NCBI RefSeq assembly: GCF_024178165.1
Contig: NZ_JAMZIE010000006.1
Span: 62,001 to 126,000, forward strand
Direction of reading: 5' to 3'
Length of the DNA: 64,000 nucleotides
Source of the DNA: Halohasta salina
GTDB lineage: Archaea > Halobacteriota > Halobacteria > Halobacteriales > Haloferacaceae
Under the pieces are notes generated by a model. The model was not told the DNA's origin. It did not search any database and saw only the letters and a list, made by a program, of their open reading frames with translations. Of the stretch, positions 7,568-28,283 are shown piece after piece. The position numbers were made by a program, and so were the translations under genes. Position 1 is the stretch's first letter, and every line of letters starts with the position of its first letter.

Positions 7568-10500
7568 CTACTGACTGTCGGTATCGGCCGCGTGGTAATC
7601 GTCGACACACGGGCCTCCAACACTCGCGGCATAGGGACAGCCCTCACAGGTCTCGGGGTCGGGCCGGGCTTCGAGTCCCGACGCAGTCGTGAGCGGGACC
7701 GCCTCGCTGGCGGCGCCGACCACTCGGTCGACCCACTCGGTGTCGAGGTCGGCGGTGACGTCGACCGGCGAGACCACCGGCTCGGTGGTGGGGTCGAGAT
7801 AGCCGACCGTCGCCGTCTCGACATCGATCCCGAACTGGCGGTCCAGCAGCCACGCGTACACCGACAACTGCCGGACGTGTTCGGTAGCCGCACCGTCGGT
7901 CGGTCGGCGGCCGGTCTTCCAGTCGACGAGGTGCCACCCGCCGCCGACCCGGTACAGCAGGTCGACCGTCCCCGTAACGCGGAGTGATCGTCCCGCGGTC
8001 GACACGAGCGACGCGAGTTCGTACTCGGTGACGCAGTTGGCTCCCGTCGACTGACACTGCTCGCCGATCCGGGAGGCGTCGACGGCCGACCAAACCCGGC
8101 GTAGGGGCTCTCTAACGCCGGTAGCCTGTGCCTTCTCGTGGGACTCGGCGCGGTCGGAGCCCGCGAGGCGAAGTTCGAGCAGTCGGTGGACGACATCACC
8201 CCACTCGGCGGCCGAAAGCCCGCCCGGCGTGTGTGTGGGCCGGGTAGTGTCTGCGGCGGGGTGGGTCGGCTGCTCGGTCACGCCGCCGCGTTCGACGCCC
8301 TGTACGTGGCGGTACTGGAACCGCCGCGGGCAGTCGGCCAGATCGGCCAGCGAGGACGCCGAGACGACCGCGGGCCGGTACGGCGGGTACCCGGCCCCGT
8401 CGCTGCCCTCGCGTAGCCGCGCCAGTTCGTCGCCGAGGTCGACGCCGTCGGTCGACTCCGGCGACTTGGACGGGAGTTCGTCGACGCCGACAGACACCAG
8501 CCGTGAGATCGTGTTCCCGCTTTCGGCACGCCACGAGAACTCCCGGCTGAGCGTGTTGCCAGTGAGGGCGTCCCAGCCGGCTGAGGGTTCGAGCGTCTCG
8601 TTGAATCCCGCGAGCCACGTTGACCACCGGGCACCGTCGTAGTAGTCGCTGGTCTCGTCGAGCGAGCCGAGCCCGAGAAAGACGTGGTTTTCGGCCCGTG
8701 TAAAGGCGACGTAGGCCAGTCGCCAGAACTCCGCCTCGCGGGCTTCGAGGTGGGCGTTCAGCGGGTTGGGATACCGGAGTTCGCCGGTGTCGGTCCGGGC
8801 GTCCGACAGCCAGATCGGGCCGGTCGCCTCGGGATAGTCGGTCGTCTCGAAGTCGTCGTTGAACCACACCGGCTGCTCGCGGTCGGTGTCGGGCGTCGGG
8901 AACGCGACGCCCGCCGGGCTCGGCGGATCGCCGGGACGCGGCCGCAGGGCGAAGCCCTGTCGACGGCTCGCAAGCAGGCGGTCGTGTTGGAGCCGGGGAA
9001 ACGTCGACTGTTTCGGCAGGTCACAGAGGAAGACGATGGGGTACTCCTGTCCTTTGGCGCGGTGGACCGTCGTCAGCGTGACCGCATCGCCACGTTCGCC
9101 GTCGCTGACCTCGGCGGTCGGGAACTGCGGGTCCGAGCTGTCGGTTGTCGCCCGGAGCCGCCGGAGCCGCCGGAGGAACTCCCGGTAGGATAGCAGTTCG
9201 TCGACCTCCCAGTCGTCGACCACCTCGACGAACCGCCAGACGTTGCCGTACCGCCGGAGGCCGTCGCTGTCACTCAACAGCACCGCATCGAGCCCCGAGT
9301 GTTGAAGTAGCCGATGGATCAGTGCCGTCTTCGACCCCTCGCGCATCCACCGCAAGTCGTCGCGGAGCGACAGCAAGCGGGCGAGCCGCTGGCGGTCGTC
9401 GTCCGGAAGCGAGTCGGGCCAGTCGTCGACCAGCGCCTCGGCGTCGGCGTCGGCGGCCGCAAGGGCTCGAATCGTCACGTCGGAGACCGCGACCAGCGGC
9501 GACCGGAGCAGCCGGTAGAGGTCGGCCTCGGCGTAGGGGGTGGCGAGCCACGAGCAGACGTCGACCAGTAACTCGATCTCGGGTTGGGCGAACAGGTCGC
9601 CGGTCGCCGCCGCCTCCGCGGGGATGCCGTAGTCCTCGCGGAGCACGGCGGCGTACCGCTGGATGCTCCGCCCGGAGCGGAACAGCAGGGTGATATCGCC
9701 GGGGGTCGGCCGGCGGCGGCCGCCCTCCCCGTCGGGGACGGTCACCGGCGGCTCGCTGGTGGGGTCGGTGATCGCCGCGATCGTCCCGCCGATCCGGTCG
9801 GCCTCGGCGGCCGCCCAGTCGGCGGCGGCGATGTACTCGGTCAGGTCGTCATCGCTTGCGGCGTCGACGTCGAGCACGTGCAGGTGGGATTCGTCGTCGC
9901 TGTCGCCGTCGAGCTCCGTGTCGGCCGCCGAGTCGTCGTCCCACGGCGAGCCATGTGGTTCGACCGGGACGTACGAGGGCGCGTGGTCGCCGACGGCGCC
10001 GCGGCCCTCGTCCTCCAGCAGGCGCTGAAACACGTGGTTGGCGGCCGCGGCGATGTCGGGATGGTGGCGGAAGACGGTCGACAGCGCGTGGTACCGCACG
10101 TCGTCGACGCCGAGATGCGGAATCGGGGCCGGATCGGGGGCCGCGGCCTTGGTGGTCTCGATAATGTCGGCGAACAGCGCCGGATCGGCCGACCGCCACT
10201 CGTAGATCGCCTGCTTGCTGTCACCGATCAACAGCAGGTTCGTCGCGTCGCCGGATTCGTCGCCGCCCTCGGGGTCGACCAGCCGCCGAAGCACCGAACA
10301 CTGGACGGCGCTTGTGTCCTGAAACTCGTCGACGAAGACGTGGTCGAACCGCTCGCCCAGCGTCCGCCGAAACGGGTCGGTCGGCTCGCAGGCGTCGAGA
10401 TAGCAGTCGAGCAGGTGGGCCACGTCGACGAAGGTGAACTGGCCGGCCCGCCGGGTGCGCTCGTCGTAGGCCTCCTCGTAGGCGGCCAACAGCGTGGCGA

Positions 10501-11416
10501 AGGCGTCGATGGCCTCGGCGGTGGCGAAGTAGGTCTCTCGGACGTGATCCAGTAGCTGCTGGGCGTCGGCGTCGTCATCGTACTCCACGCTCGCATCCTC
10601 GTCGACGACCGCTCGTAGGAGGGCGGTGATCTCGTCGACCGTCTCGGGCGGCACCGAGTCGGGGCCCGCCTCGGGGGACCACCCCTCGAACCACCGCTCG
10701 CCGTCGCCGCCGTGGCCCACGGCGAGACTCTCCCGGAGGGAGTCGGCGGCCTCGGTCGGCGTGATCCCGAACTCCCGGCACTTCTGTTGGGCGGTCGACA
10801 ACATCCCGTCGACCGAATCAGGCGGATAGTCGCGCCAGTCCTCGCGTGGGTAGGCCTCCGAGAGCGTCCGGAACTCGCTGCGGTGCTCCTCGCGGAGGGT
10901 ATCGAACACCGACTCGCGGAGCTCCTCCAGTTCGAGCCGGTCGTCGACGTCGAAATCCGGCGGGACACCGACCTCGACGGCGATCTCCCGGAGGAGGTCG
11001 CCGAACACCGCATCCAGCGTCTCGATGGTACTGTCGGTTTCGAGCCACCGGAAGACCGCCCGTGGGAGTTCGCCGCCGTTGTCGGCGTGGTGGCGAAGCA
11101 CCTCCCCCAGCCGGGTTTTCAGTTCGGCGGCAGCATCCCGACCGAACGTGGTGACGAGCATCCCCGAAAGCGGGTTGGACGTCTCGCTGGCCTCTCGCAC
11201 GACCGCCTCGGCGACCGTCGTCACGAGCGCCGACGTCTTGCCGGTGCCCGCCGAGGCGTCGACGACCACCCGGCCGGTGCCGTCGAAGTAGCTCGCCAAC
11301 ACTGCCCGCTGGTCGTCGACCGGCGGGTAAGGTGGCTCGTCGCTGTCGCCGAACTGGAGCCGAAGATCGAGGTCGGTGCCGCCATCGCTGGCGGTCGACC
11401 GACCCTCTCGGCTCAT
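7568..11416 (-). CDS. AddA-like UvrD-family helicase with C-terminal Fe-S nuclease domain
   Basis: 1282-residue superfamily 1A helicase fused to a PD-(D/E)XK nuclease, the architecture of AddA in double-strand break end processing. Helicase motifs are intact: Walker A ASAGTGKT at 54-61, Walker B FVDEFQDTS, motif III LLIGDSKQAIYEWR, motif V TTVHRAKGQEYPIV and motif VI AFTRAENHVFLG. The C-terminal nuclease keeps its His (WGDVVHRLLE), Asp (GTVDLLYR) and D-x-K (LVDWKTG). It also has cysteines in the Fe-S arrangement: C in ADCPRRF, then C-x2-C-x8-C at the extreme C terminus. The ATG overlaps the stop of the AddB-like gene by 4 bases (ATGA), so the two subunits are coupled. Confidence 0.9.
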   Translation of the reverse strand: MSREGRSTASDGGTDLDLRLQFGDSDEPPYPPVDDQRAVLASYFDGTGRVVVDASAGTGKTSALVTTVAEAVVREASETSNPLSGMLVTTFGRDAAAELKTRLGEVLRHHADNGGELPRAVFRWLETDSTIETLDAVFGDLLREIAVEVGVPPDFDVDDRLELEELRESVFDTLREEHRSEFRTLSEAYPREDWRDYPPDSVDGMLSTAQQKCREFGITPTEAADSLRESLAVGHGGDGERWFEGWSPEAGPDSVPPETVDEITALLRAVVDEDASVEYDDDADAQQLLDHVRETYFATAEAIDAFATLLAAYEEAYDERTRRAGQFTFVDVAHLLDCYLDACEPTDPFRRTLGERFDHVFVDEFQDTSAVQCSVLRRLVDPEGGDESGDATNLLLIGDSKQAIYEWRSADPALFADIIETTKAAAPDPAPIPHLGVDDVRYHALSTVFRHHPDIAAAANHVFQRLLEDEGRGAVGDHAPSYVPVEPHGSPWDDDSAADTELDGDSDDESHLHVLDVDAASDDDLTEYIAAADWAAAEADRIGGTIAAITDPTSEPPVTVPDGEGGRRRPTPGDITLLFRSGRSIQRYAAVLREDYGIPAEAAATGDLFAQPEIELLVDVCSWLATPYAEADLYRLLRSPLVAVSDVTIRALAAADADAEALVDDWPDSLPDDDRQRLARLLSLRDDLRWMREGSKTALIHRLLQHSGLDAVLLSDSDGLRRYGNVWRFVEVVDDWEVDELLSYREFLRRLRRLRATTDSSDPQFPTAEVSDGERGDAVTLTTVHRAKGQEYPIVFLCDLPKQSTFPRLQHDRLLASRRQGFALRPRPGDPPSPAGVAFPTPDTDREQPVWFNDDFETTDYPEATGPIWLSDARTDTGELRYPNPLNAHLEAREAEFWRLAYVAFTRAENHVFLGLGSLDETSDYYDGARWSTWLAGFNETLEPSAGWDALTGNTLSREFSWRAESGNTISRLVSVGVDELPSKSPESTDGVDLGDELARLREGSDGAGYPPYRPAVVSASSLADLADCPRRFQYRHVQGVERGGVTEQPTHPAADTTRPTHTPGGLSAAEWGDVVHRLLELRLAGSDRAESHEKAQATGVREPLRRVWSAVDASRIGEQCQSTGANCVTEYELASLVSTAGRSLRVTGTVDLLYRVGGGWHLVDWKTGRRPTDGAATEHVRQLSVYAWLLDRQFGIDVETATVGYLDPTTEPVVSPVDVTADLDTEWVDRVVGAASEAVPLTTASGLEARPDPETCEGCPYAASVGGPCVDDYHAADTDSQ

Positions 11417-14400
11417 TGGCCACCCCGCTGGTGGGCCGCAGGCACGCCACAGAGCGCACGGTAGTCACAGCCCCGACAGCCGCCGTCGTCGACGAACGAC
11501 TCCGAGACACGGTAGGTGATCGGTTCGTCGACGGCAGCCATCGAGTCGAGCCGGCTTGCAGTCCGCTTGTGCCACGTCGTATACCGGTCCTGCCACGCCG
11601 CACGGCCGAGCCGCGAGAGGTTCGCGTCCTGTCGAATTCGGTCGGGAATCGGGTTCAGATCGTCGACGAAGAACCCCTGCCGGCCGACCGCCGAACTGGA
11701 GGGGTCACAGACGACCGTCCCACCGAACTCCGACGTTGTCTCGGCGCCGAGCAGAAGCCGGTGGTCGACGGTTCCCGTTTGGCTCGGCTCTAGGGACTCC
11801 CTAACCAGCCGTTCGGCGACTCCAGTACCCCCGGTGTACCAGACCGGGATGGTCATTTCGTACGTCGGGATGGTGTCGACCCGATGGCCGGGGACCCGAA
11901 CCTCGTGGCCGTCGATGTTCACCGTCGACGCCGGTTGCCAGCGCCACTCGCGGTCGACGCCGGCGGCCAGTTCCTGTTCGACGGCCCGATACTCCCCGAG
12001 CAGCGGCTGCATCAGGCTTCGGTCGAGGCCATCCCGCTCGATCCACGCGACCAACTGGTCGCGGAACGCCCCGATACTGTCGTACCCCCCGAGCGTCGCC
12101 TGCCGGTCGGCGAGTCGGTCGGTCGACGTGAGCAGCCGGCGCAGCCCCGCGGTAAACTCCGGAGAGGGGTATCGGCCACCGATCGGTGCGGGGAGATCGG
12201 TCGACCGATCACGCTCGGTGTCACCGCCGCGTACGTACCGGTGGAAGTAGTATTTGAGCTGGCAGTTGGCGTACAGATCGAGTTCGTGGAGCCGGATCGG
12301 CGACCCGGCGTGGTCGGCCAGCGATCGGTCACCGACCGCCGGGTCGTCGGGGTCGACCGTGGTCGACCACAGGTCCACGCCGCGGTACCGTTGCCGGCGT
12401 GGCTCGATCTCCCGTTCGTAGGCCTCGCCGTCGGCCCGCGACAACAGTTCGGCGATCGCTTCGGCGTCGGTCAGTCCGGCCGTCGAGCGACCGGTTTTCC
12501 CCGACTCGACGCCGTCGGGGAACGTCGCCGCCAGCAGTCGCAGCCGGTCCCGTGGGGTCGACGTTCGGCTGGCGGCTGTCGGATCGTCGCCGCTCGCCGT
12601 CGGGAGCCACTCGTCCATCCCGATCTGGTCGACCTCGGCGTCGTTGCCGGCGATGTAGGCGTCGACGAACCCCGACCACGCCACCGGTTCGCCCTCCGTG
12701 GTTCGGTACTGTCGGTAACAGCCGAGGCCCCCGCTGGCCGCGTCGACCGCCGCCCGAAACTCCTCGGCGTCGCCCGCGAACTGGCTATGGCCGGTCGGCG
12801 CGTGGAGGTAGGCTGCGGGCCCGCCGCTGGCCGCCGCGGCTGTCTCCCGCACTGCGGTATAAAAATCCTCGTGGAAGAAACTCGGCGGGCTCCGCTCGGC
12901 GGGGAACTCCCCGGCGGCCAATCCGATGACGAAGACGTAGTCGGCCTCCAGATAGTGTGCGTTGGCGGCGTTGACGATCCGCACCGCGTTGCCGTCGGCA
13001 TCCCGGGGCCAGTAGGAGGCCCCACCGCAGACGTTCCGCACCCCCTCGGCGGCCAGCCCCCATCCCGGCGCGCCGAGGTCGGTCTCGACCGCGCGGTCGA
13101 CGTAGCTCCCCGCCCGGTCGGCCTCGCCCCGGAGTCGGTCGACGACGCGGGCGTCGTGTTCGGTCCCGAGGGCGGTCCGCCGGGCGTCGATGCCGGGGCC
13201 GGTCGGCTGTCGAACACCGCGGCCGGCGTGGGCTGCGAGGTGGGCATCGAGCAGCGACTCGATCAGCGCGGCGACATCGGTCCCCGATTCGGGCGGCCCC
13301 TCGGCGGTGGCCTCGATCCAGTCGACGAACGCGACAAGCGCGGGCGACTCGTCGGGCGCTATCGCCGCCCGCCAGTCGGCGACCGGCTCCCCCTCGTCGT
13401 CGCTGACGGCTTCGAGTCGGCGCTCGATGTCGGCGACCGTCTCGCCGTCGACGGGCCACTCGTCCGGCTGGTCGGGCCACTCGCCCGGCTGGTCGGGCGG
13501 GCAGAACCCAAGCCGGAGCGGGTCGACGAGGTCGTCGGCCGTCACGGATTTGCCCTCGTCGGTGGCCGCCAGCAGGTCGAACACCGCCCGCAGATACCGG
13601 TAAGGAACCGTCTGCATCAGGGGTTTGCGGGCCTCGATGTAGGTCGGGATCCCGTGGCTCGTGAACACGTCGGCGATCCGGCTCCGGTAGGGAATCACGT
13701 CCTTGGCGGCGACGACGATTTCGCCGGGAGTCGTCGCTGCTTTCGATTCGTCTCCGCCGTCGACCATTCCCGTCAACTCCCGAATCCGTCCGGCGACGTG
13801 ATCGAGTTCCCGCCGGCCGTCGGGTGCTTCGACGAACTCGACGGTCGGCAGCGAGTCCGGTGGCTCGCCCGCCACAGTGGCCATCAGTCTCGCGGTGTGA
13901 GGTCGGTCGCCGGTGTCGCTTTCGTCCAGTTCGGGATCGAGACTCGTCGAGGCTAGTCGGTCGTAGAGCGTCGGTCCCGCACCCGCTTTGCTGCCGAACA
14001 CGTAGATATCGGGGCCCTCCTCGAGCGTAGCGAGCGCCTCGAACAGCCGGAGCGTCGGGTTGTCGAGCACCGAAACCGTATCGAGGGCGACCCACTCGAC
14101 GTCGGGGTAGCAGGCTGTCCACTCGGTGGCCAGTACCTCACGGGCCGCGGCCACGAGGTGGCTTCGGGAGAGGTACGTCGACTCGGGGAGGCTGTCGGTT
14201 CGCGCTTGGAGGGCGGTATGGAGTTGGTCGAACGCGGTGAGGGCCTGCCGGGAGCGCCTTCCGGCGTAGGGGTCGCTCGCGGCGAGTTCGTCGGCCACGC
14301 CGACGGCTGCCGCGTGATCACCGCCGGCGTCGGTCAGCCGGAAGTAGCGGTCGAGTTCGTGCCACAGCGTGTCCCGAAGCGCCGGTCGACCCGCCCAGTC

Positions 14401-14757
14401 GAACCTCGACAGGAGGTCGGCGACCGCATCCAGCGATCCGGAGTCGGGGGCGCTGGTAATGACGTCGACCACCAGCGCCTCGCCGAGCGGTTGGTCGATG
14501 ATCTCGACGCGCTCCGGCGTATCGCTTTGGCGGCGATGGTGCGATTCGAGGAGGGTCCGCGCCGTGTCTTCGATCGTCGAGATGCCGATCCCTGCGGTGG
14601 GGACCTCTCGCCGGGCGAGTTCGGCTTCGAGGTTGCCGCCGACGATGCCACCGGCGACCAGACAGTGCCCCGTCTGTGGGTCGGTGGGGCCGACATCGCG
14701 GTCGACTCGCCCGTCGAGAAACGACAGCAGTGAACCGTAGGAAACCGTAACAGACAC
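11413..14757 (-). CDS. AddB-like subunit (PD-(D/E)XK superfamily, catalytic residues apparently lost)
   Basis: 1114-residue first gene of the helicase-nuclease pair. It has the AddB/RexB layout: a degenerate N-terminal helicase-like half without a Walker A motif, a helicase-like middle (DYVFVIGLAAGEFPAE near residue 610) and a C-terminal nuclease-fold domain. The Fe-S cysteines of AddB nucleases are present: C in LYANCQLKYYFHRY, then C-x2-C-x5-C in CRGCDYRALC. The expected catalytic segment (Asp then D-x-K-T-G) reads VDTIPTYEMTIPVWYTGG, with no D-x-K. I infer a structural or DNA-binding role with nuclease activity left to AddA. The GTG start is used; CATAAATCG at 14785-14793 is a possible TATA box about 31 bases upstream. 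Confidence 0.82.
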   Translation of the reverse strand: MSVTVSYGSLLSFLDGRVDRDVGPTDPQTGHCLVAGGIVGGNLEAELARREVPTAGIGISTIEDTARTLLESHHRRQSDTPERVEIIDQPLGEALVVDVITSAPDSGSLDAVADLLSRFDWAGRPALRDTLWHELDRYFRLTDAGGDHAAAVGVADELAASDPYAGRRSRQALTAFDQLHTALQARTDSLPESTYLSRSHLVAAAREVLATEWTACYPDVEWVALDTVSVLDNPTLRLFEALATLEEGPDIYVFGSKAGAGPTLYDRLASTSLDPELDESDTGDRPHTARLMATVAGEPPDSLPTVEFVEAPDGRRELDHVAGRIRELTGMVDGGDESKAATTPGEIVVAAKDVIPYRSRIADVFTSHGIPTYIEARKPLMQTVPYRYLRAVFDLLAATDEGKSVTADDLVDPLRLGFCPPDQPGEWPDQPDEWPVDGETVADIERRLEAVSDDEGEPVADWRAAIAPDESPALVAFVDWIEATAEGPPESGTDVAALIESLLDAHLAAHAGRGVRQPTGPGIDARRTALGTEHDARVVDRLRGEADRAGSYVDRAVETDLGAPGWGLAAEGVRNVCGGASYWPRDADGNAVRIVNAANAHYLEADYVFVIGLAAGEFPAERSPPSFFHEDFYTAVRETAAAASGGPAAYLHAPTGHSQFAGDAEEFRAAVDAASGGLGCYRQYRTTEGEPVAWSGFVDAYIAGNDAEVDQIGMDEWLPTASGDDPTAASRTSTPRDRLRLLAATFPDGVESGKTGRSTAGLTDAEAIAELLSRADGEAYEREIEPRRQRYRGVDLWSTTVDPDDPAVGDRSLADHAGSPIRLHELDLYANCQLKYYFHRYVRGGDTERDRSTDLPAPIGGRYPSPEFTAGLRRLLTSTDRLADRQATLGGYDSIGAFRDQLVAWIERDGLDRSLMQPLLGEYRAVEQELAAGVDREWRWQPASTVNIDGHEVRVPGHRVDTIPTYEMTIPVWYTGGTGVAERLVRESLEPSQTGTVDHRLLLGAETTSEFGGTVVCDPSSSAVGRQGFFVDDLNPIPDRIRQDANLSRLGRAAWQDRYTTWHKRTASRLDSMAAVDEPITYRVSESFVDDGGCRGCDYRALCGVPAAHQRGGQ

Positions 14758-18694: not shown

Positions 18695-19768
18695 CTACTC
18701 GGAGGCGGCGGCCTGCTGGTGGTGGTGCCGGCGGAGGACGCCGACCTTGTTGGCGACCGTCGCGGCGAGGGACTCGAAGGCCGCGGCGGCGTCGCCGCTC
18801 TCGCGGCGGACGACCGGCTCGCCGTCGTCGCCGCCGGCTCGCACGGCCGGATCCAGCGGGAGCGAGCCGAGATACGGCACCTCGACCGCCTCGGCCAGCG
18901 ACTGGCCGCCGTCGTCGCCGAAGATATCGTGGTGGCCGCCGCAGTCGGGGCAGACGAACGAACTCATGTTCTCGACGACGCCCAGTACGTTGGTCCCGTA
19001 CTCGGCGAACAGCTCGACGCCCCGGCGGGCGTCGTCGACCGCCACCGACTGGGGCGTGGTGACGACGACCGTTCCCGTGACCGGCAGGTTCTGGAGGACG
19101 GTCAATTGGACGTCCCCGGTCCCCGGCGGCAGGTCGACGATCAGGTAGTCGAGACCGCCCCACGAGACGTCGTCGAAGAGGTTCGTGAGCGTGTTCTGGG
19201 CGACTGGGCCGCGCCAGACGACCGGGTCGTCCTCTTCGATCATCAGCCCGACACTCATCAGCTTGAGGCCGTGGGCCGTCGGCGGTTCGATCCGATCCTC
19301 GCCGTCGACCGTCGTCACGTCGGGATCGGCCTCGGAACCGAGCATCCGCGGGACGTTCGGGCCGTAGACGTCGGCGTCGAAGATCCCCACCTCGGCCCCG
19401 CGCTCGGCGAGCCCCGCCGCGATGTTGACCGCGACGGTGCTTTTGCCGACGCCGCCTTTGCCGGAGGCGACCGCGATCACGTTCCGGACGCCCGGCAGGA
19501 CGGCCGTTTCGTTCTCGTCGACCAGCGGGACATTCGCCGAGAGTTCGGCGTCGAGCCCCGCCTCGGCGACCACCTCACGGATACGGTCGGCGATGGCCGC
19601 CTCGTCGGGCGCATGCGGTGCACCGAGGGCGAGTTCGATCCGGGCGGTGTCGTCCTCGATAGTGAAGTCGGTGACGACCCCCGCGGATACGATATCTGTG
19701 TCGAGCGCCGGGTCGTCGACGGCGCGCAGGCGATCACGAAGGTCGGTGTCTGAGATGTCAGTTGTCAT
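18695..19768 (-). CDS. Mrp/NBP35-type Fe-S carrier ATPase
   Basis: 357-residue P-loop NTPase that carries and delivers iron-sulfur clusters. An N-terminal MIP18/DUF59-like domain (about 5-80) precedes the deviant Walker A GKGGVGKST at 103-111. The ATPase landmarks DADVYGPNVPRM and DLPPGTGD follow, and the C-x2-C of FVCPDCGG near residue 270 binds the bridging cluster. It is the last gene of the molybdoenzyme operon. Its ATG overlaps the stop of the TorD gene (ATGA), which argues for a dedicated role in loading the Fe-S-rich reductase subunits. Confidence 0.9.
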   Translation of the reverse strand: MTTDISDTDLRDRLRAVDDPALDTDIVSAGVVTDFTIEDDTARIELALGAPHAPDEAAIADRIREVVAEAGLDAELSANVPLVDENETAVLPGVRNVIAVASGKGGVGKSTVAVNIAAGLAERGAEVGIFDADVYGPNVPRMLGSEADPDVTTVDGEDRIEPPTAHGLKLMSVGLMIEEDDPVVWRGPVAQNTLTNLFDDVSWGGLDYLIVDLPPGTGDVQLTVLQNLPVTGTVVVTTPQSVAVDDARRGVELFAEYGTNVLGVVENMSSFVCPDCGGHHDIFGDDGGQSLAEAVEVPYLGSLPLDPAVRAGGDDGEPVVRRESGDAAAAFESLAATVANKVGVLRRHHHQQAAASE

Positions 19769-20517
19769 TGGGTGTCGGTGTCGGGGTGTGGTTCGGCAGT
19801 CCCTGTGTCGGCTGCGACGCCCTCGCGGGCGTCCCATGCGGTGAACGTCCGGGCGATGCGTGCCACAGCGGCGAAGACGCCCTCGACGGTGTCCTCGCTT
19901 GCGACGGCCTCTTCGAAGGCATCGAGCCAGCCCAACCGGGCGAGTGTCGACGCTTGCAACTCGCGGACGCCAGCGAGTTCGTCGCTCGCGTCGTTTTCGT
20001 CGAGCAGCGCCGCCTCGCGCTCGCAGAGCGCCCGCATGAACTCGAAGCAGGCCGCGAGGTGGTCCGGAATGTCGTCGCCGCGTGTCGGCTCGAAGCCGGC
20101 GGCGTCGTATAGCCGGGCCATCGCGGCGGCCGGATCGCCCAGCAGTTCGCCCGACTCACCCGCCGTGTGGTACGGCGAATCCGACTCGAACTCCTCACTC
20201 GGATCGGTGGCGTGAGCCGACGCGAACGGCGGGATGTAGTGGTCTCCGGGGACGACGAACAGATTGTCGTACCCGATTTTGAGTGCCCGCTCGTCGGGGT
20301 TTTCGACCACGAGATCGTCGGTCTCGATAGCGATCGGCAGCACGGCGGCGAGGTCGACGAACGTTCGGTCGTCGAGCGCGGTCACGAGTCGGTCAATCTC
20401 GCCGTCGAAGGCCGCCGCCAGCAGCCCGTAGACGCGGGCTCGGGCCTGCGCCATCGCACGGGCGTTCGGATCGTCGGCGGGCGTGTCGTTGGCGTTGCGG
20501 GTAGGCATCGGGCTCAC
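19765..20517 (-). CDS. TorD/DmsD-like molybdoenzyme chaperone
   Basis: 250-residue all-helical protein of the TorD/DmsD family, cytoplasmic chaperones that bind the Tat signal of molybdopterin enzymes until cofactor insertion. The family hallmark E-x-P-x-D-H appears as FEPTRGDDIPDHLAACFEFM. The N-terminal helix carries QARARVYGLLAAAF. The GTG at 20517 overlaps the stop of the catalytic subunit gene (GTGA); an ATG at 20508 is an alternative three codons in. It sits between the catalytic subunit and Mrp, as expected for maturation genes. Confidence 0.87.
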   Translation of the reverse strand: MSPMPTRNANDTPADDPNARAMAQARARVYGLLAAAFDGEIDRLVTALDDRTFVDLAAVLPIAIETDDLVVENPDERALKIGYDNLFVVPGDHYIPPFASAHATDPSEEFESDSPYHTAGESGELLGDPAAAMARLYDAAGFEPTRGDDIPDHLAACFEFMRALCEREAALLDENDASDELAGVRELQASTLARLGWLDAFEEAVASEDTVEGVFAAVARIARTFTAWDAREGVAADTGTAEPHPDTDTQ

Positions 20518-23500
20518 CGGCGCTCCACCTCGACGAAGGCGTCGTACTGGGCGTTGCTGCCGCCAACGAGGTCCGAGAGGCCGGTGTCGCCGAGTTCACT
20601 GTCCAGCGGTTGGATGTGGTTGACCGCGAAGCCGGCGTCCCGACCCTTGGCGATCCCTGCGTCGTCGTGCATCGGCTGGTCGAACTTGTAGGGCGTGTGG
20701 CCATCTGCCTCGGCAGCCGCTTGCGTCCGGCCGTCGACGGTCTGGTCGGCCGCGCCGTCGCCGCTGCGGCCCCAGCCCCACGCCGCGCCGACGACGCCGG
20801 GGCGGATGCCGCCGGTGACTCTCGCCATCCCCTCGACGGTGCGTCGACCGGCGTCGATGGTGATCTCGTCGCCGCTCTCGATGCCGCGTTTCTCTGCGTC
20901 TTTGGGATTGATCCACAGCGGGTTTTCGGGCTGTGTTTCGCGGAGCCACGGGCTGTTCTGGGTGCGGTGCATCCCCTGGGTGCGGGGCTTCCAGTTGATG
21001 AGCCGCAGCGGTCGATTGGGCTCCTCGTCGCCGCCCACGGCGGCCTGGACGTCGCCGTTGTAGTGTTTCACGTCGTCGACCTTCGGTAGCGGGTCGAACC
21101 GCTCGCCGGTAAACGAGTGTTTGCCGGTCGCCACGGGGTCGCTGTAGAAGTTCACCCGTGCGCCGAGTTTGTAGCGCATGTGCTCGCCGTCGTAGGCGTT
21201 GGTGTCGGTGCGTCGACCGGCGTAATCGTAGTCGTGGCCCTGCTGGCGGAACGCGGCCTCGTAGTCCTCGACCGGTTCCTCGAAGCGGCCACCGCGGTTG
21301 AGGACCGTGACGACTTTCGCCCACTCCTCGTCGGTGACCGCCTGCTGCCAGCGGGCGAGGTCGAAGGCGTCGCCGAGGCCCTTCTCGTGGCTCTCGCGGA
21401 ACACGTCCTGTTCGGCGGCAGTGGCGTCGGCCACCGGCTCCCGCGAGTAGGCGATGTTGGCCGCCAGCTTGAGGTAAAAGTCCTCGGCCTGGTCGAGCGG
21501 CCACAGGTTGCCGTCGGCGTCGGGAATCGACGCCTCGCCGACGCCGGGGAGGTCCATCTCCTTCCAGATGTCGACGAGCACATCCTCGAAGGGCCGGGCG
21601 TCGGGGACGACCGAGATGGCGGGCTGGCTGATCTTCTCGTCGGCCAGCCGCTTGTTCGGGTAGGTGCCGAAGTTCTCCCAGCGTTCGAGGTAGGTCGGCT
21701 CGGGCAGGATGTAGTCGGCGTGTTTGCTGGTCTCGCCGATCACCGTATCCGAGGCGACCACCAGCGGGATGGTGTCGGTGTCCTGGAGGATCGCCGGGAT
21801 CTGATCGCCGCCGGCGACCGCCATCACGTGATTGTTCGAGTACGGCCGGATGAACAGCGCGTTAACACCGTAGGGGTACTCGTCGGCGGCGCTGCCGTAG
21901 ATCTCCTGGGTCTGCTGGGCCGGGGCGACGGGGAACCACGGCCGCTTGGCCGGGTAGCCGTCGTCGCGGTCGAACAGCGTGGTGTCCTCGTAGTTGACGC
22001 CCCCACGGGTCAGCGGGATCCCCCACGAGCCGTTGGCGTCGGGGACGTTCCCCAACTGGTAACGACCCGACATCGTGTCGTAACCCGCATATGGCGTGAT
22101 CTGGCCGCCTTTCCAGTCGTAGTTGCCGATGAGGTGCTGGAGGGTGGCGATGGCGCGGGTGTTGTAGAAGCCGTTGGTGTGTTTCGCCGGGCCGCGGTAC
22201 TGCATGATGGCGGCCTTCTTGCCGTGGCTGGTGAACTCGTCGGCGATCTCGGCGATCTGTTCGGTCGGGACATCCGCCATCTCGGCGTACTCTTCGAGGG
22301 TGTGTTCGAAGACACGGTCGCGGTACTGGCTCCAGACGCTCTCGACGCTCGTGCCGTTGACTGTCACGTCGACTTCCAGCACCGCGGTCTCGACCTCGCT
22401 GGCCGGGCGCGGGTCGCCCGACTCGGCGTCGACGACGACGTAGTCGTCGGCTGTCTCGGCGTCCGGTGCGACGAGGCCCAGGTCGGCGGCCGTCGCCTTC
22501 TGGCCCTCCGCCTCGTCGACGAGAACGAGATGGGTCGCGTCGCTCCAGGTGGGCTCGTTGTCGGCTCCGGCGGCCGCCTGCGAGGGGTTCTGCAGGTAGG
22601 TCAGATCGTGGCGGTCGTGGGCGATGATCCACCGGGCCATCCCGAGGGCGAGTGCGCCGTCGGCACCGGGATCGACCGGCACCCACGTGTCGGCCTTCTC
22701 GGCGGTCTTCGAGAGCCGCGGGTCGACCACGTCCATCCGCATCCCGTCCTGGATGGCGTTGGTCAGTTTCGGAGCGAGCCACGTCGGCCCTTTGTTGGCG
22801 ACCATCGGGTTCGTCCCCCACACGAGGACGTACTCGGCCTCGTCGATGTCGGGGTACTGTCGCTTCTTTTTGGCGTTGTACGACCGGACGTTCCCCATCA
22901 CGCTCGAAAAGCCACAGGTCCCGGCGTGGTGGAAGCTATTGATCGAGCCCAGCCCCTGCTTCCAGAGCCGCTTGCGGATGAAGTTCCGCCGGAAGCCGCC
23001 GACGTCGACGATCTGGTTGGCCTTCGGCCCCAGATCTGGGTGGTCGGTGTCGATGAGTTCGTCCTCCCACTTCGAATCGAACGCCGATTTCGCCATCGAG
23101 CCGTCCTGGACGGCTTCCCAGTCGCTCATGACCTCGCCTTTGGGAGCGTGGCCCCACATCTCGCGCAGACCGGGGTGGCCGAGGTCGTCGTCGCCGTCGA
23201 CGATCTCCTCGATGGCCTGGTCCCACGAGATAGTCTCCCACTCGCCCGACCCCCGCGGCCCGACGCGTTTCATCGGTTTGCGGACCCGGTAGCTGTCGAA
23301 GGCCGTCTGGATGCCCGCCTGCCCTTTTAGGCAGATGCGGCCGCCCGACAGCGACCAGCGGTCGGTGTCGACGTCGCCCGTGCCTTCGAGGTCGCCCATG
23401 GCGACGGCTTCGGGGTCGCTGTCGTAGGGCACCTGGCCGAACGGCTGGGTGGTGAGGAACGAGTAAGGGTTCCCCGCCAGTTTCCTGATCAGCGAGCTGT

Positions 23501-23771
23501 ACTCGCCGGTGCCGCTGCTGTCTGCGAGTCGCACCTTGACCGGGCAGAAGGTGTTACACTGCCCGCAGGTGGTGTGGATCACGTCGCTCGCGCCGTACTC
23601 GCCGTACTCGTCGCCGACGTAGTGGTGTTCGTCGTCCGTCCACAGGTCGCCCAGATCAGTGTCTACGGTCACACTGCTGAGACCTGCGATCGCGCCGATA
23701 CTCCCTGCAGCCTTGACGAAGTCGCGGCGCGAAACCGACGCGCCGTCGTCGCCTGTGTCGTCAGTACTCAT
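20514..23771 (-). CDS. Tat-exported molybdopterin oxidoreductase, catalytic subunit (TtrA/PsrA-like)
   Basis: 1085-residue catalytic subunit of a DMSO-reductase-family respiratory complex, exported by the Tat path (twin Arg at 15-16 in SRRDFVKAAG). A [4Fe-4S] site is formed by C69-x2-C72-x3-C76 and C147. The molybdenum ligand position reads HHAGTCGFSS, placing Cys286 at Mo. A Cys ligand groups it with polysulfide, thiosulfate, tetrathionate, selenate and arsenate reductases rather than the Ser-liganded DMSO/TMAO reductases. Its length is near that of tetrathionate-reductase-type TtrA subunits. Partners are an NrfD-type anchor and a four-cluster ferredoxin subunit. The physiological acceptor is not determined. 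Confidence 0.88.
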   Translation of the reverse strand: MSTDDTGDDGASVSRRDFVKAAGSIGAIAGLSSVTVDTDLGDLWTDDEHHYVGDEYGEYGASDVIHTTCGQCNTFCPVKVRLADSSGTGEYSSLIRKLAGNPYSFLTTQPFGQVPYDSDPEAVAMGDLEGTGDVDTDRWSLSGGRICLKGQAGIQTAFDSYRVRKPMKRVGPRGSGEWETISWDQAIEEIVDGDDDLGHPGLREMWGHAPKGEVMSDWEAVQDGSMAKSAFDSKWEDELIDTDHPDLGPKANQIVDVGGFRRNFIRKRLWKQGLGSINSFHHAGTCGFSSVMGNVRSYNAKKKRQYPDIDEAEYVLVWGTNPMVANKGPTWLAPKLTNAIQDGMRMDVVDPRLSKTAEKADTWVPVDPGADGALALGMARWIIAHDRHDLTYLQNPSQAAAGADNEPTWSDATHLVLVDEAEGQKATAADLGLVAPDAETADDYVVVDAESGDPRPASEVETAVLEVDVTVNGTSVESVWSQYRDRVFEHTLEEYAEMADVPTEQIAEIADEFTSHGKKAAIMQYRGPAKHTNGFYNTRAIATLQHLIGNYDWKGGQITPYAGYDTMSGRYQLGNVPDANGSWGIPLTRGGVNYEDTTLFDRDDGYPAKRPWFPVAPAQQTQEIYGSAADEYPYGVNALFIRPYSNNHVMAVAGGDQIPAILQDTDTIPLVVASDTVIGETSKHADYILPEPTYLERWENFGTYPNKRLADEKISQPAISVVPDARPFEDVLVDIWKEMDLPGVGEASIPDADGNLWPLDQAEDFYLKLAANIAYSREPVADATAAEQDVFRESHEKGLGDAFDLARWQQAVTDEEWAKVVTVLNRGGRFEEPVEDYEAAFRQQGHDYDYAGRRTDTNAYDGEHMRYKLGARVNFYSDPVATGKHSFTGERFDPLPKVDDVKHYNGDVQAAVGGDEEPNRPLRLINWKPRTQGMHRTQNSPWLRETQPENPLWINPKDAEKRGIESGDEITIDAGRRTVEGMARVTGGIRPGVVGAAWGWGRSGDGAADQTVDGRTQAAAEADGHTPYKFDQPMHDDAGIAKGRDAGFAVNHIQPLDSELGDTGLSDLVGGSNAQYDAFVEVERR

Positions 23772-25042
23772 TCGTGGTCACCGCCGAGCGGTGTCAGTGG
23801 CAGCGTTTCGGCTCCCAGCGTGTACAGCAGCAGTCCGACAGCCATGATGCCGATACTCGATCCCCACTCAACGAGCGTCGGGAAGTACGAGCCGTGGGGG
23901 AGCCCCTCCATCACCGGCAGGATCTGTGCCGGGATGACGATATTGAACCGCACCGCGATGATCCCGATGACGACGCTCAGTCCGGCCAGCACCATCACCG
24001 ACGGCGTGCGTCGCCACGACTTCTTGCTCAGCAACACCATCGGGAACACCCAGCTGAGGCCGACCATGAACCACCAGAACGACCACGACATCGGGCCGTA
24101 CATGATGACCTGCCAGGTCTCGATCTCGTGGGGGTGGAGGCTGGCGAGCGGAATGAACGCCTCGATGGCGGTCAGCGCGGCGTCGATGATGATGAAGCCG
24201 ATCAGCAGTTGGGCGAGTCGGTCGAGCAACTCCGGGTCGACCGAGTCGCCGTCGAACAGTTTGGTCCGGAGCACGTAGATCATCATTACCAGCGCGGTCC
24301 CGCTGAGTAGCGCCGAAATAACGAAGATCACCGGGAACAGTCCGCTGTTCCAGTAGGGCCGGGCCTTCGAGACGGCGAACAGCACGCCGGTGCCGCCGTG
24401 GACCGTGAAGATCGCCAGCGGAATCCCGAGAATCCCGGCCCGCTTGAGCCAGCGCCGGTCGAAGGCCTGCGACGCCTCGCCCGTGTCGTCGCGGCCCAGC
24501 GTCAGTACCGTGTAGAACCGCTCTCGAAGCCCCGAGGCCCGCTCGGCGACCCGCGCGAGGTCGATCCGCATCGAGAAGTACAGCTCCGTGACCAGGATGC
24601 CGATGTAGGCCACGTAGGCGTGGACCTCCCACGAGAGCGCCGAGGTGAGCTGTCGCCAAATAAATGGGAAGTACATTCGGTCCATCCGGCCGAGATCGAT
24701 CCAGACGAACAGCAGGGCGACGACCATACTGATGATCGCCGCGAACAGCGCATCGCGGTCGATCCGGTGCATCCCCTCGATCTCGAAGACGTTGGCCATC
24801 GTGCTCACGAGGAATGCCCCCGCCGAGAGGCCGACGAAGTAGATGTAGAAGGCGACCCACGACCCCCACGGCACGATGCTCGTGAGGTTGGTACTCGCCA
24901 TCCCCTCGGTGAGCCGGATGTAGGCCGCGACCGCACCGCCGGCCAGCAGGACGCCGATGAAGGCGTACCACGCGATCCGGAGCCGGTCGCTCTCGAAGCC
25001 GGGGTCGAACTCGAACTCGAAGCCTGATGATTCGGTTGCCAT
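23768..25042 (-). CDS. NrfD/PsrC-type quinol-oxidising membrane anchor
   Basis: 424-residue integral membrane subunit with about ten hydrophobic helices, including WGSWVAFYIYFVGLSAGAFLVS near the N terminus and HGGTGVLFAVSKARPYWNSGLFP in the middle, both typical of the NrfD/PsrC family. It should pass electrons from menaquinol to the Fe-S subunit. The stop overlaps the ATG of the catalytic subunit (ATGA) and the start lies 2 bases after the Fe-S gene, so subunit synthesis is coupled. Confidence 0.93.
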   Translation of the reverse strand: MATESSGFEFEFDPGFESDRLRIAWYAFIGVLLAGGAVAAYIRLTEGMASTNLTSIVPWGSWVAFYIYFVGLSAGAFLVSTMANVFEIEGMHRIDRDALFAAIISMVVALLFVWIDLGRMDRMYFPFIWRQLTSALSWEVHAYVAYIGILVTELYFSMRIDLARVAERASGLRERFYTVLTLGRDDTGEASQAFDRRWLKRAGILGIPLAIFTVHGGTGVLFAVSKARPYWNSGLFPVIFVISALLSGTALVMMIYVLRTKLFDGDSVDPELLDRLAQLLIGFIIIDAALTAIEAFIPLASLHPHEIETWQVIMYGPMSWSFWWFMVGLSWVFPMVLLSKKSWRRTPSVMVLAGLSVVIGIIAVRFNIVIPAQILPVMEGLPHGSYFPTLVEWGSSIGIMAVGLLLYTLGAETLPLTPLGGDHE

Positions 25043-25044
25043 GA

Positions 25045-26070
25045 TTATTTGAGGTAGTAGACGTTCGGGTCGGTCCCCTCGTCTTCTTTCAGTTGGAACG
25101 CCCGGCTTGAGTCGGCCATGGCGGCGACCTCACTGTCGGGATCGTCGAGGTCGCCCATGTTGCGGGCATCGCCGACACAGGTCTCCACACAGGCTGGCTC
25201 CTCGCCGCGTTCCAGCCGGTGGGTACAGAAGCTACACTTCCGGACGTTGCCGATGGGCGATTTGTTCTCCTCGCGTTTGCCGCGGTCGACACCGTACTCC
25301 GGACTGGTGATCTCGCCGGCCTCGTCGACTTCGTCGTCGTAGTTCTCGCCGAAGTCGAAGTAGCGTGCGCCGTACGGGCAGGCGATCATGCAGTACCGAC
25401 AGCCGATACAGCGGTCGTAGTCGATGTTGACCACGCCGTCGTCCATCTTGTAGGTCGCCGACACCGGACACACCTGCACGCAGGGCGGGTTCTCACACTG
25501 CATACAGGGTTTCGGGACGTTCGTCCGCGTGGTGTTGGGGAACTCGCCGTGTTCCTCCTCCATCACGACGTTGTACGAGACGCCGGGCGGCGTCCGGTTT
25601 TCGGCCTTGCAGGCGACAGTACAGGAGTCACAACCCACACACTTCTGGAGGTCGATCACCATCCCCCACTTCTCGTCGCCCGCGCCGATACCGCCCTCGC
25701 CGTCGCCGGTCCCGACGCTCTCGGCGGCTACCGTGTCCATCGAGCCGACCGTACACTGCATCGACTCGGCGGCTTCCGTCGAGACCGTCTGGTCGCCGGC
25801 GTCGACTGCGGGGTTCGGCGTCTCGCGGTAGTCGTCGCCGAACTCGGCAGCCGCGGCCGCGTCGTGTTTCGCCCAGTACTCGTCGCCCGAGAGGTCACCG
25901 CGTGCGACGCGCTTGGCGTCTTCGGCCATTTCGATTCCGAGGTCGGTGTCGGCGTCGACATCCGCCAGTTCCTCGCGTGGGTCGGTCGTCTCGGCGTCGA
26001 CCATCGCATCGAACTCGTCCCGACCGACGCTCGGGACGCCCGGAAGCGTCTCGCCGTCCGCGCTACTCAT
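25045..26070 (-). CDS. Four-cluster ferredoxin subunit of the molybdoenzyme complex
   Basis: 341-residue electron-transfer subunit (TtrB/PsrB/DmsB type). After an acidic, cysteine-poor extension of about 130 residues come four ferredoxin cysteine groups: CVGCDSCTVAC, CMQCENPPCVQVC, CIGCRYCMIAC, and the split group CSFC ... CVETC. No Tat signal is visible, so export with the catalytic subunit is inferred. First gene of the five-gene operon. The repeat array at 26165-26258 lies about 95-190 bases upstream. Confidence 0.93.
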   Translation of the reverse strand: MSSADGETLPGVPSVGRDEFDAMVDAETTDPREELADVDADTDLGIEMAEDAKRVARGDLSGDEYWAKHDAAAAAEFGDDYRETPNPAVDAGDQTVSTEAAESMQCTVGSMDTVAAESVGTGDGEGGIGAGDEKWGMVIDLQKCVGCDSCTVACKAENRTPPGVSYNVVMEEEHGEFPNTTRTNVPKPCMQCENPPCVQVCPVSATYKMDDGVVNIDYDRCIGCRYCMIACPYGARYFDFGENYDDEVDEAGEITSPEYGVDRGKREENKSPIGNVRKCSFCTHRLERGEEPACVETCVGDARNMGDLDDPDSEVAAMADSSRAFQLKEDEGTDPNVYYLK

Positions 26071-26164
26071 CGTTCCACCCCGTCGGTCGGCCCTTGAGGG
26101 GCCGGATCAGTCGATCGATCATACACGTAGACGTACGGCAACACCCGTGGTGAGCGTTGTACCG

Positions 26165-26258
26165 ATACTGTTTGCCCGGCCGAAACCCCCCATATCCGGG
26201 GTCCCAATACTGTTTGCCCCGCCGATATCCCCACTGTCAGGGGTATCAATACTGTTTG
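26165..26258. promoter_or_regulatory. Three ATACTGTTTG repeats at exact 42-bp spacing, with C4/G4 palindromes between
   Basis: Perfect 10-bp copies at 26165-26174, 26207-26216 and 26249-26258. Between them sit CCCC-N6-GGGG (26188-26201) and CCCC-N7-GGGG (26229-26243), also in 42-bp phase. The array occupies the 356-base gap between the molybdoenzyme operon and the divergent regulator gene. It is a good candidate activator array, as 42 bp equals four helical turns. Nothing else gene-like is seen in the gap. Confidence 0.7.
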
Positions 26259-26324
26259 GGTCGGGGGGTGGCTCCCCGATTTCGGGCGATGGAGTGATCG
26301 CGCTCGCCGCATGTCGACGACCAC

Positions 26325-26335
26325 GATTATTTATC
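26325..26335 (+). promoter_or_regulatory. TATA box of HTH-10 regulator gene
   Basis: GATTATTTATC on the plus strand. It predicts a start near 26358 and a leader of about 68 bases, consistent with the use of a Shine-Dalgarno site (GGGAGG at 26415-26420) before the GTG at 26427. Confidence 0.5.
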
Positions 26336-26426
26336 CGGTGAGACAGTCGACCCTCATTATGTACTGGTCGAATCGAGCGATAGGACGTCGTGCCGGCCGA
26401 CGGTCGCCGCGAGTGGGAGGCTCCAC

Positions 26427-28283
26427 GTGAACGGGATCCTGCTGGCTTCGGTCGTCCTCCGGCTGTTAGGCGCAGGCTACTCGCTGCTGTTGCTCTCGCG
26501 GAGCCGCGACCGACGGTTCGGCTTCCTGACGCTCATGCTGTCGTTCATGGCCCTGCGGCAGCTGTTGACGATGCGGACCGCCAGCGCCGGGATCGAGGAG
26601 CTGCCCGGGCTGATAGTAAGTGTGTTGACAATATTAACCGTCTACTACCTCTCGAAATACGTCGACGAGGAGGCGACGATCAAGCGGGAACTCCAGCGGG
26701 CCAACGACCGCCTCCGGGGGTTCCGGAAGGCGATCGAACACGCCGGCCACGCTATCTTCCTCACCGACCCCGACGGCACCATCGAGTACGCCAACCCGGC
26801 CGTCGAGTCGGTCACGGGCTACACACCCGCGGAGGTGATCGGCGAGAACCCGCGGCTCTGGCAGTCCGGCGAGCACGACGAGGCGTTTTACGAGGGGTTG
26901 TGGGACCAGATCACCTCCGGCTCGGTCTGGGACGGCGAGCTCACCAACCGCCGGAAGTCCGGCGAGCGCTGCTGGGTCGACACCACCATCGCCCCGATCA
27001 CCGACGGCGACGGCGCGGTCGAACGCTTTGTCGCCATCGAACGGAACATCACCGAGCGGAAAGAGCGGGAGCTTCGCATTGAGGAGCAAAACGAACGGCT
27101 GGAACTGCTCAACACCACAAACGAGATGCTTCGGGACGTCAACCGTGAACTCGTCGCGGCCTCGACACGCGAAGAGATCGAACACGCCGTCTGCGAGCAG
27201 TTCGCGGGCGTCGACCCCTTCGATGTCGCGTGGATCGGGAGCCGGGGCCTCGTCGACGGCACGGTCTCGCCGCGGTCGTGGGCCGGAACCGACGCGACCA
27301 CCCTCGAAGCCCACATCGAGGCGCTGTGTGACACCGCGCCGACACCGGTTGAGGAGGCCCTAGATAGCGGCCAACCGGTGTTTACGACCGTCGACCACGC
27401 CACCGATCAGGGGGCTGTCGAGACACGGGCCATCGTCGTCCCGCTGGCCTACCGCGGTGCCGAGTACGGCGTGCTCGTGATCGAGACGGCCGACGACGAC
27501 GCGGTCGACCTGCTCGACGCCGAGATATTCGCCGAACTCGGTCGGACCGTCGCCGACGCGATCAGCGCCGTAGAGAGCAAACGGACGCTGGCCTCCGACA
27601 GCGTGACCGAACTCGAATTCCAGCTGACGGGGATTGACGAGCCGCTGGCCGCCCTCGCGGCGCAGTTGGACTGCACCGTCGAGTTGGAACACATCGCTGC
27701 CGACGGTGACGGCCAGCACCGCCAGTACGTCGCGCTCACCGGCACGACACCCGAGGCGGTCGCGGAGTACGCGAGCGGGGCGGCCCACATCGACGCCGTC
27801 CAACACGTCTGTACGAACGACGACTGTCACCTCTTCCGGCTGGCAGCCGACGACTCGACCATCGTCGACACGCTGGCACAGTACGGTGCCGGCATCGAGT
27901 CGCTGTCGATCACCGGCGACAGCGGGCGGCTGGTCGCGCAGGTCGCCAGTTCGAACGACATTCGGAGCGTCGTCGACGCCCTGCAGTCGACCTACGACGG
28001 GCTGACGCTTCTCGCCCAGCGCGAACGCGAGCGGGACATCCAGACCGAGGCCGCCTTCCGGGCGCAGCTCGAATCGATGTTGACCGATCGCCAACGCGAG
28101 GCCGCTCGGACCGCCTACTTCGCCGGCTACTTCGAGTGGCCGCGGGACCACAGCGGCGAGCAGGTCGCCACGATGATGGATATCTCACAGACGACGTTCA
28201 CACAGCACCTGCGGGCGGCCGAACGGAAGCTGTTTGCGGCCCTGTTCGGCGACACGACGGTCGACCGACTGGAGCCGGTCTGA
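26427..28283 (+). CDS. Membrane PAS/GAF regulator with bacterio-opsin activator HTH-10 domain
   Basis: 618-residue one-component regulator. Three hydrophobic segments (about 1-75) anchor it to the membrane. A PAS domain follows (about 95-215, IFLTDPDGTIEYANPAVESVTGY), then a GAF-like domain (about 230-390), a Bat-associated domain, and the C-terminal HTH-10 (LTDRQREAARTAYFAGYFEWPR ... GEQVATMMDISQTTFTQHLRAAERKL). The GTG start is supported by GGGAGG seven bases upstream. It is divergent from the molybdoenzyme operon across the repeat array. By analogy with DmsR next to haloarchaeal dms operons, I infer that it activates that operon in response to redox or oxygen state. Confidence 0.88.
   Translation: MNGILLASVVLRLLGAGYSLLLLSRSRDRRFGFLTLMLSFMALRQLLTMRTASAGIEELPGLIVSVLTILTVYYLSKYVDEEATIKRELQRANDRLRGFRKAIEHAGHAIFLTDPDGTIEYANPAVESVTGYTPAEVIGENPRLWQSGEHDEAFYEGLWDQITSGSVWDGELTNRRKSGERCWVDTTIAPITDGDGAVERFVAIERNITERKERELRIEEQNERLELLNTTNEMLRDVNRELVAASTREEIEHAVCEQFAGVDPFDVAWIGSRGLVDGTVSPRSWAGTDATTLEAHIEALCDTAPTPVEEALDSGQPVFTTVDHATDQGAVETRAIVVPLAYRGAEYGVLVIETADDDAVDLLDAEIFAELGRTVADAISAVESKRTLASDSVTELEFQLTGIDEPLAALAAQLDCTVELEHIAADGDGQHRQYVALTGTTPEAVAEYASGAAHIDAVQHVCTNDDCHLFRLAADDSTIVDTLAQYGAGIESLSITGDSGRLVAQVASSNDIRSVVDALQSTYDGLTLLAQRERERDIQTEAAFRAQLESMLTDRQREAARTAYFAGYFEWPRDHSGEQVATMMDISQTTFTQHLRAAERKLFAALFGDTTVDRLEPV

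Follow-up and report, generated by a model that had tools for sequence, protein, structure and literature searches.

Helically phased promoter boxes conserved between a haloarchaeal molybdoenzyme operon and a divergent HTH-10 regulator gene

The window (that is, the whole 64-kb stretch of DNA analysed here) carries a molybdoenzyme operon on the minus strand and, reading away from it on the plus strand, the gene of an HTH-10 regulator:

19765–20517, minus strand: TorD/NarJ-type chaperone (Nitrate_red_del), by domain matches
20514–23771, minus strand: molybdopterin catalytic subunit, TtrA/PhsA-like by domain and model matches
23768–25042, minus strand: NrfD/PsrC-like membrane subunit, by domain matches
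25045–26070, minus strand: opening gene of the operon, an Fe-S subunit carrying a Ferredoxin_N domain, by domain matches
26427–28283, plus strand: regulator with hydrophobic N-terminal helices followed by PAS, GAF, BAT and HTH_10, by Pfam and a structure model

Judged by sequence similarity, the catalytic subunit is TtrA/PsrA-like: its nearest NCBIfam model is TtrA (NF011567; 414.8 bits, which is far below the curated cut-off of 1750), and among solved structures only the thiosulfate reductase 2vpw (E 1.3e-27) and ArrA are related to it at E 1e-20 or better. The protein starts with SRRDFVK, which we take to be a Tat-like motif. A haloarchaeal Ttr branch, with one member induced on thiosulfate, is described in the accessible text of a previous study (PMC5437934). 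Nearly full-length relatives of the Fe-S subunit (51–55% identity) are also found in halophilic Bacillota (Virgibacillus and Lentibacillus; loci L188–L190 and L209), where neither the regulator nor the promoter box described below was found; a transfer between domains of life is possible.

The regulator matches HTH_10 (4.6e-20), BAT (5.7e-42), PAS_9 (2.9e-22) and GAF_2 (5.7e-9) in Pfam, and the order of helices and strands in its predicted structure agrees with these domains (mean pLDDT 74.8, pTM 0.38; a model of moderate confidence that places three helices in residues 1–105). Given that a hydrophobic stretch of 19 residues occurs within the first 110 residues in 32 of the 34 regulators scanned (of 48), and elsewhere in none, the regulator is likely to be anchored in the membrane; the regulators of L143 and L141 fall below the threshold for such a stretch. 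On the regulator tree, the protein of the window lies nearest Halorientalis-type sequences of another family (L133, 76% identity), a placement that suggests horizontal spread of the module.

An earlier note on this DNA had reported, between the operon and the divergent regulator gene, three perfect copies of ATACTGTTTG at exactly 42 bp, and both the copies (at 26165, 26207 and 26249; spacing 42 and 42 bp) and their position between the Fe-S and HTH_10/BAT genes are borne out by the coordinates. No further copy occurs in the 64-kb window at up to one mismatch, the expectation there being 0.29 with one mismatch allowed, and 0 of 100 shuffles reach three. The whole genome (3.04 Mb) holds six exact copies versus three of the reversed control pattern; the three copies outside the array all sit within open reading frames, on which ground a wider regulon in the same genome was rejected. 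The functional unit is longer than ATACTGTTTG, namely a 16-bp box on the minus strand that reads CCAAACAGTATTGGTA towards the operon and forms an imperfect dyad with a CCAA-N6-TTGG skeleton (that is, CCAA and TTGG arms). The intergenic region and its margins are thus laid out as follows:

26063–26122, minus strand: operon leader mini-ORF MIDRLIRPLKGRPTGWNDE, 19 codons, its last 8 nt shared with the start of the Fe-S gene
26123–26159, minus strand: operon core promoter, conserved and without a TATA box (46 distinct loci)
26160–26175, minus strand: proximal box GCAAACAGTATCGGTA, whose end lies 37 nt upstream of the mini-ORF ATG
26202–26217, minus strand: middle box GCAAACAGTATTGGGA, 42 bp away from both the proximal and the distal box
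26244–26259, minus strand: distal box CCAAACAGTATTGATA, 1 mismatch to the consensus
26159–26242, no strand assigned: two 42-bp tandem units of box plus spacer (26159–26200 and 26201–26242), 79% identical
26327–26334, plus strand: TATA-like TTATTTAT, 25–32 nt before the ATG of the regulator mini-ORF
26359–26430, plus strand: regulator leader mini-ORF, 23 codons, its last 4 nt shared with the start (GTG) of the regulator gene

Within its own genome, the 16-mer has nine matches at up to three mismatches, which equals the nine of the reversed control, so sequence alone is insufficient and the case is carried by position and comparison. The boxes of the window are three of the four best 16-mers in that genome (1, 2 and 2 mismatches, compared with 2 in the fourth). 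A two-mismatch site at C23:97108 was rejected as a promoter site, as it overlaps the start codon of an ORF that, from its sequence, we take to be CheW-like. Among the 170 genomes of the family, 20 encode an ortholog of the Fe-S subunit, and CCAAACAGTATTGGTA or a close variant stands upstream of it in all 20; with up to one mismatch tolerated, 19 of these 20 genomes contain the 16-mer, as do 5 of the 150 remaining ones, and its reversed control occurs in 3 of the 170. Elsewhere in the family, the lone matches in G006, G007 and G051 and the C37 match of G052 lie inside ORFs, and the G029 match appears to be a lone intergenic site.

Comparison of orthologous intergenic regions extends this pattern well beyond the family. 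An order-level search was positive in 38 of 392 genomes, 29 of them outside the family, and yielded 49 operon loci including the window; with six haloarchaeal loci from named genomes, the set comprises 55 loci (53 distinct). A box ending 36–38 nt before an ATG is present in 51 of the 53 distinct upstream regions, at exactly 37 nt in 46; the two loci without a box (L160 and L187) also have no adjacent match to the regulator. The earlier matrix, trained on family loci, had found the box in 47 of the 49 loci of the order, and four held-out loci (L162, L169, L178 and L180) all fit every prediction; among the six added loci, two did not score with it, namely L187, which has no regulator, and L201, whose motif has drifted. 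Drift of the box is greatest in a separately branching clade of regulators (L150–L154, L156, L157 and L159), in which the distal copy of L159 reads CCAATACCTATTGG, and the relaxed motif rule was devised once the drifted loci (L151–L154, L156, L157 and L159) had been seen.

The gaps between neighbouring boxes fall into two narrow classes, namely 42 bp (8 gaps at 7 loci) and 51, 52 or 53 bp (3, 23 and 16 gaps, respectively), with no gap of 43–50 bp among the distinct loci. Most relatives carry two boxes five turns apart, and the three-box 42/42 array is confined to the window (1 of 55 loci); this array may be either a tighter switch or a recent duplication, and its third box may be a recent, even dispensable, gain by duplication. 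Two boxes are not strictly needed, given the single box of L126. L201 has one box by the relaxed rule, together with a half-site TATTGG 52 nt upstream that was spotted by eye.

A search that is blind to the spacing (two cores 35–65 bp apart, 392 genomes) was positive in 12 genomes and recovered the same distances (42 bp twice, 51 bp twice, 52 bp seven times and 53 bp once), with 0 matches for the reversed control. The pairs lie at the molybdoenzyme operon in nine genomes and at a duplicated promoter in three (G050, G054 and G113); dispersal away from promoters, which the earlier note had named as evidence against a regulatory role, was thus not seen across the 392 genomes. It is very improbable that the array is a product of chance or a neutral 42-bp tandem duplication: the units at 26159–26242 are indeed a tandem duplication at 79% identity, but box pairs four or five turns apart, with diverged spacers, recur throughout the order, and the reversed control of the spacing-blind search is empty.

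At 10.5 bp per turn, a spacing of 42 bp corresponds to 4.00 helical turns and one of 51–53 bp to 4.86–5.05 turns. On the tree of 48 regulators, the 42-bp state (the window; L136; L137; L151–L154) needs at least four changes, as forced by the starred branches and with a bootstrap range of 4–4; few independent events underlie the two spacing classes, the changes may have run in either direction, and reversals may be among the four. Between clades, spacer identity is 0.29–0.43 versus 0.23–0.33 for shuffled sequence (42 two-box loci at 51–53 bp), and that of the boxes is 0.59–0.83; spacers are thus near the shuffled level and boxes conserved, indicating that the length of the spacer is kept and its sequence is not. 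The whole-turn distances and their repeated change on the tree favour the suggestion of the earlier note that the sites are phased on one face of the DNA, as is established for paired regulator sites in bacterial systems (PMC7408454, accessible text). The spacing rule, four turns or five with at least four changes on the tree, amounts to a natural experiment.

The C4/G4 palindromes that had been placed in the same phase fared less well. The tandem units do contain such elements, and their GGGG runs are 42 bp apart; however, the CCCC runs are 41 bp apart, and the window has only two CCCC...GGGG elements (approximately 26188–26201 and 26229–26243). As they are not kept across clades, the elements do not belong to the general module and were ruled out as an operator.

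The regulator gene is adjacent and divergent at 48 of the 49 operon loci of the order, the exception being L160. Homologs of the regulator with at least 48% identity are encoded by every one of the 20 family genomes that have the operon and by only one (G071) of the 150 without it, where the gene carries an in-frame stop. At that locus (L161), the stop is a TAG and the operon has no match; at L122 (G052), a split interrupts the reading frame of the regulator near residue 98–136. We regard the arrangement as a real and conserved regulatory module, comparable to the Bat/DmsR activator system, to which its regulator protein belongs as judged by sequence. Sites upstream of both genes had been proposed: the operon side of this claim stands, with its fixed 36–38 nt to the leader ATG, but the boxes lie 103–281 bp from the regulator start without any fixed distance, and autoregulation as the main role was set aside.

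Another protein, such as a different HTH-10 paralog or a variant of TBP or TFB, is unlikely to be the one that binds the boxes. Such a binder would account for G054, which retains a box pair without the regulator, and candidates would not be scarce, given the many regulator-like paralogs in genomes of the family (tens of first-look candidates in most). On the other side, the operon has the regulator beside it in 48 of the 49 loci, L160 and L187 show neither an adjacent regulator match nor boxes, and the loci of paralogs at 38–39% identity (L086–L090) have no box at the strict score. The box pair of G054 belongs to a duplicated promoter that is present at L116, L121, L122 and L131, where it precedes a short Ferredoxin_N ORF, an Oxidored_molyb ORF and a MobA-like ORF (G050, G113 and G052; decayed in G054). 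We rejected this promoter as a second independent target, as the short ORF resembles the N terminus of the Fe-S subunit, which marks it as a duplicate. In G054, the duplicated promoter is kept and neither operon nor regulator has a match at the thresholds used, which fits a relic; the pair is also expected from a different binding protein and counts against exclusive recognition by this regulator.

Downstream of the proximal box, the core promoter is conserved. In the 46 distinct loci whose ATG lies at 37 nt, the consensus from −35 to −24 approximates ACGCTCTCCACC, with C(−32) invariant and T(−31) near-invariant, and the dinucleotide directly before the operon-side ATG is GT (G(−2) invariant, T(−1) near-invariant). 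No TATA box was found over these 46 loci; the accessible text of PMC4983044 gives TTWT as the TATA motif of haloarchaea. The ATG opens a mini-ORF of 13–25 codons that runs into the start of the Fe-S gene. For 47 of the 51 distinct loci this overlap measures 4 nt; in the other 4, the window among them, it is 8 or 11 nt. The distances between ATG and Fe-S start take 13 values (2 modulo 3 in 47 of 51, 1 in four and 0 in none); that is, the frame is kept while length and peptide vary (L112–L180), and no conservation of the peptide between clades was found. In 37 of 47 loci, the regulator side has its own TATA-like element together with a leader frame whose overlap is 4 nt; this count omits L160 and L122 (the regulator frame of L122 being broken). 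The comparison exposes a conserved, unannotated mini-ORF leader, and in the window both divergent transcripts have such an unannotated leader frame.

In Haloferax volcanii, leaderless transcripts make up 72% of the total (PMC4983044), and all nine overlapping gene pairs tested in Haloferax were strictly coupled in translation (PMC6728339), as far as the accessible parts of these studies go. By analogy, the transcripts here are probably leaderless, with ribosomes passing to the downstream gene by termination–reinitiation at the mini-ORF. The former study lists 16 leader ORFs of 15–31 amino acids, at least two of them before HTH-10 regulators (PMC4983044). ATGA overlaps are common to the coupled pairs of H. 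volcanii, in the accessible text (PMC6728339), and to the loci described here; unlike in those gene pairs, the upstream frame here is a leader of only 13–25 codons whose sequence is not conserved.

Taken together, we consider it quite likely, on the strength of the comparative patterns, that the boxes are operators of the divergent HTH-10 regulator, which would bind them cooperatively on one face of the DNA and activate an operon that is then translated through reinitiation at its leader. Each 16-bp box would take one unit of the regulator, probably a dimer. As the boxes are an integral number of turns apart (4 × 10.5 = 42; 5 × 10.5 = 52.5), bound units would share one face of the DNA and could touch, and as the proximal box adjoins the TATA-less core at a fixed distance, the protein bound there may recruit or stabilise TBP/TFB. 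The bound regulator would thereby switch on the Fe-S/NrfD/molybdopterin operon in response to a signal (presumably redox state or an electron acceptor) sensed by its membrane, PAS and GAF part. The ATG that follows the box by 37 nt would be the probable start of the transcript, with translation of the Fe-S gene then relying on termination–reinitiation from the mini-ORF.

Operators in phased pairs are used by repressors, too. The accessible text of PMC7408454 names lambda, lac and AraC, and the linkage and spacing data would also be compatible with a divergent regulator that represses the operon from these boxes or alternates between repression and activation. We consider this improbable, given that the proximal box lies upstream of, and not over, the TATA-less core promoter, and that the characterised relatives Bat and DmsR activate (PMC1447603, accessible text); the preference for activation draws on this analogy and on the TATA-less core. 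Starting from activation by the HTH-10 regulator, a wider generalisation can be envisioned, although we hold it to be doubtful: the module might exemplify a TATA-less class of archaeal promoters in which a membrane-anchored one-component activator needs operators that all face the membrane, so that their spacing would evolve by whole turns (42 to approximately 52 bp), together with a leaderless mini-ORF hand-over of ribosomes to the first gene on both transcripts.

Nearest in logic are the Bat–bop and DmsR–dms systems of Halobacterium, whose regulators are both activators with a Bat-like HTH, according to the accessible text of PMC1447603. As in Bat/bop, the regulator combines PAS, GAF and a Bat-like HTH, and an upstream site adjoins a poor-TATA core promoter, the TATA box of bop deviating from the consensus (PMC1447603). 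As in the Bat and DmsR systems, the regulator stands beside its presumed target operon (48 of 49 loci here). Unlike Bat/bop, for which one site is described, the promoters here have two or three phased boxes and serve a different enzyme, and both the hydrophobic N-terminal helices and the mini-ORF leader set them apart. The reverse strand of the box, ACCAATACTGTTTG, may share an ACC...TTnG skeleton with the bop UAS, a possible likeness at the level of the skeleton only. DmsR/dms likewise pairs positive control through a Bat-like HTH with a molybdoenzyme operon (PMC1447603), although its enzyme is NarG-like and that of the window TtrA/PhsA-like, and DmsR, unlike the regulator here, is said to be without PAS and GAF in the accessible text of PMC11218638. 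The NarO system of Haloferax also has a repeated motif at promoters of anaerobic respiration and Bat-like regulators, but its denitrification motif CGAAYATDKTYG differs in sequence from the box, and no phased pair is described in the accessible text (PMC11218638). Comparison by eye with the box sequences did not find CGAAYATDKTYG in the promoter boxes. In a literature search that covered few subscription papers, neither the motifs, as exact strings, nor a description of paired, phased HTH-10 sites was found.

HTH-10 regulators are abundant in haloarchaea and few of their sites are known; one of them now gains a concrete candidate site, and the fixed geometry of that site to a TATA-less core makes an archaeal activator mechanism testable. 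Elsewhere in the window (7568–14757, minus strand), an ORF for a UvrD-helicase/PD-(D/E)XK nuclease (1282 amino acids) adjoins a 1114-amino-acid ORF without a Pfam match, a pair that we take to resemble the AddAB/RecBCD arrangement.
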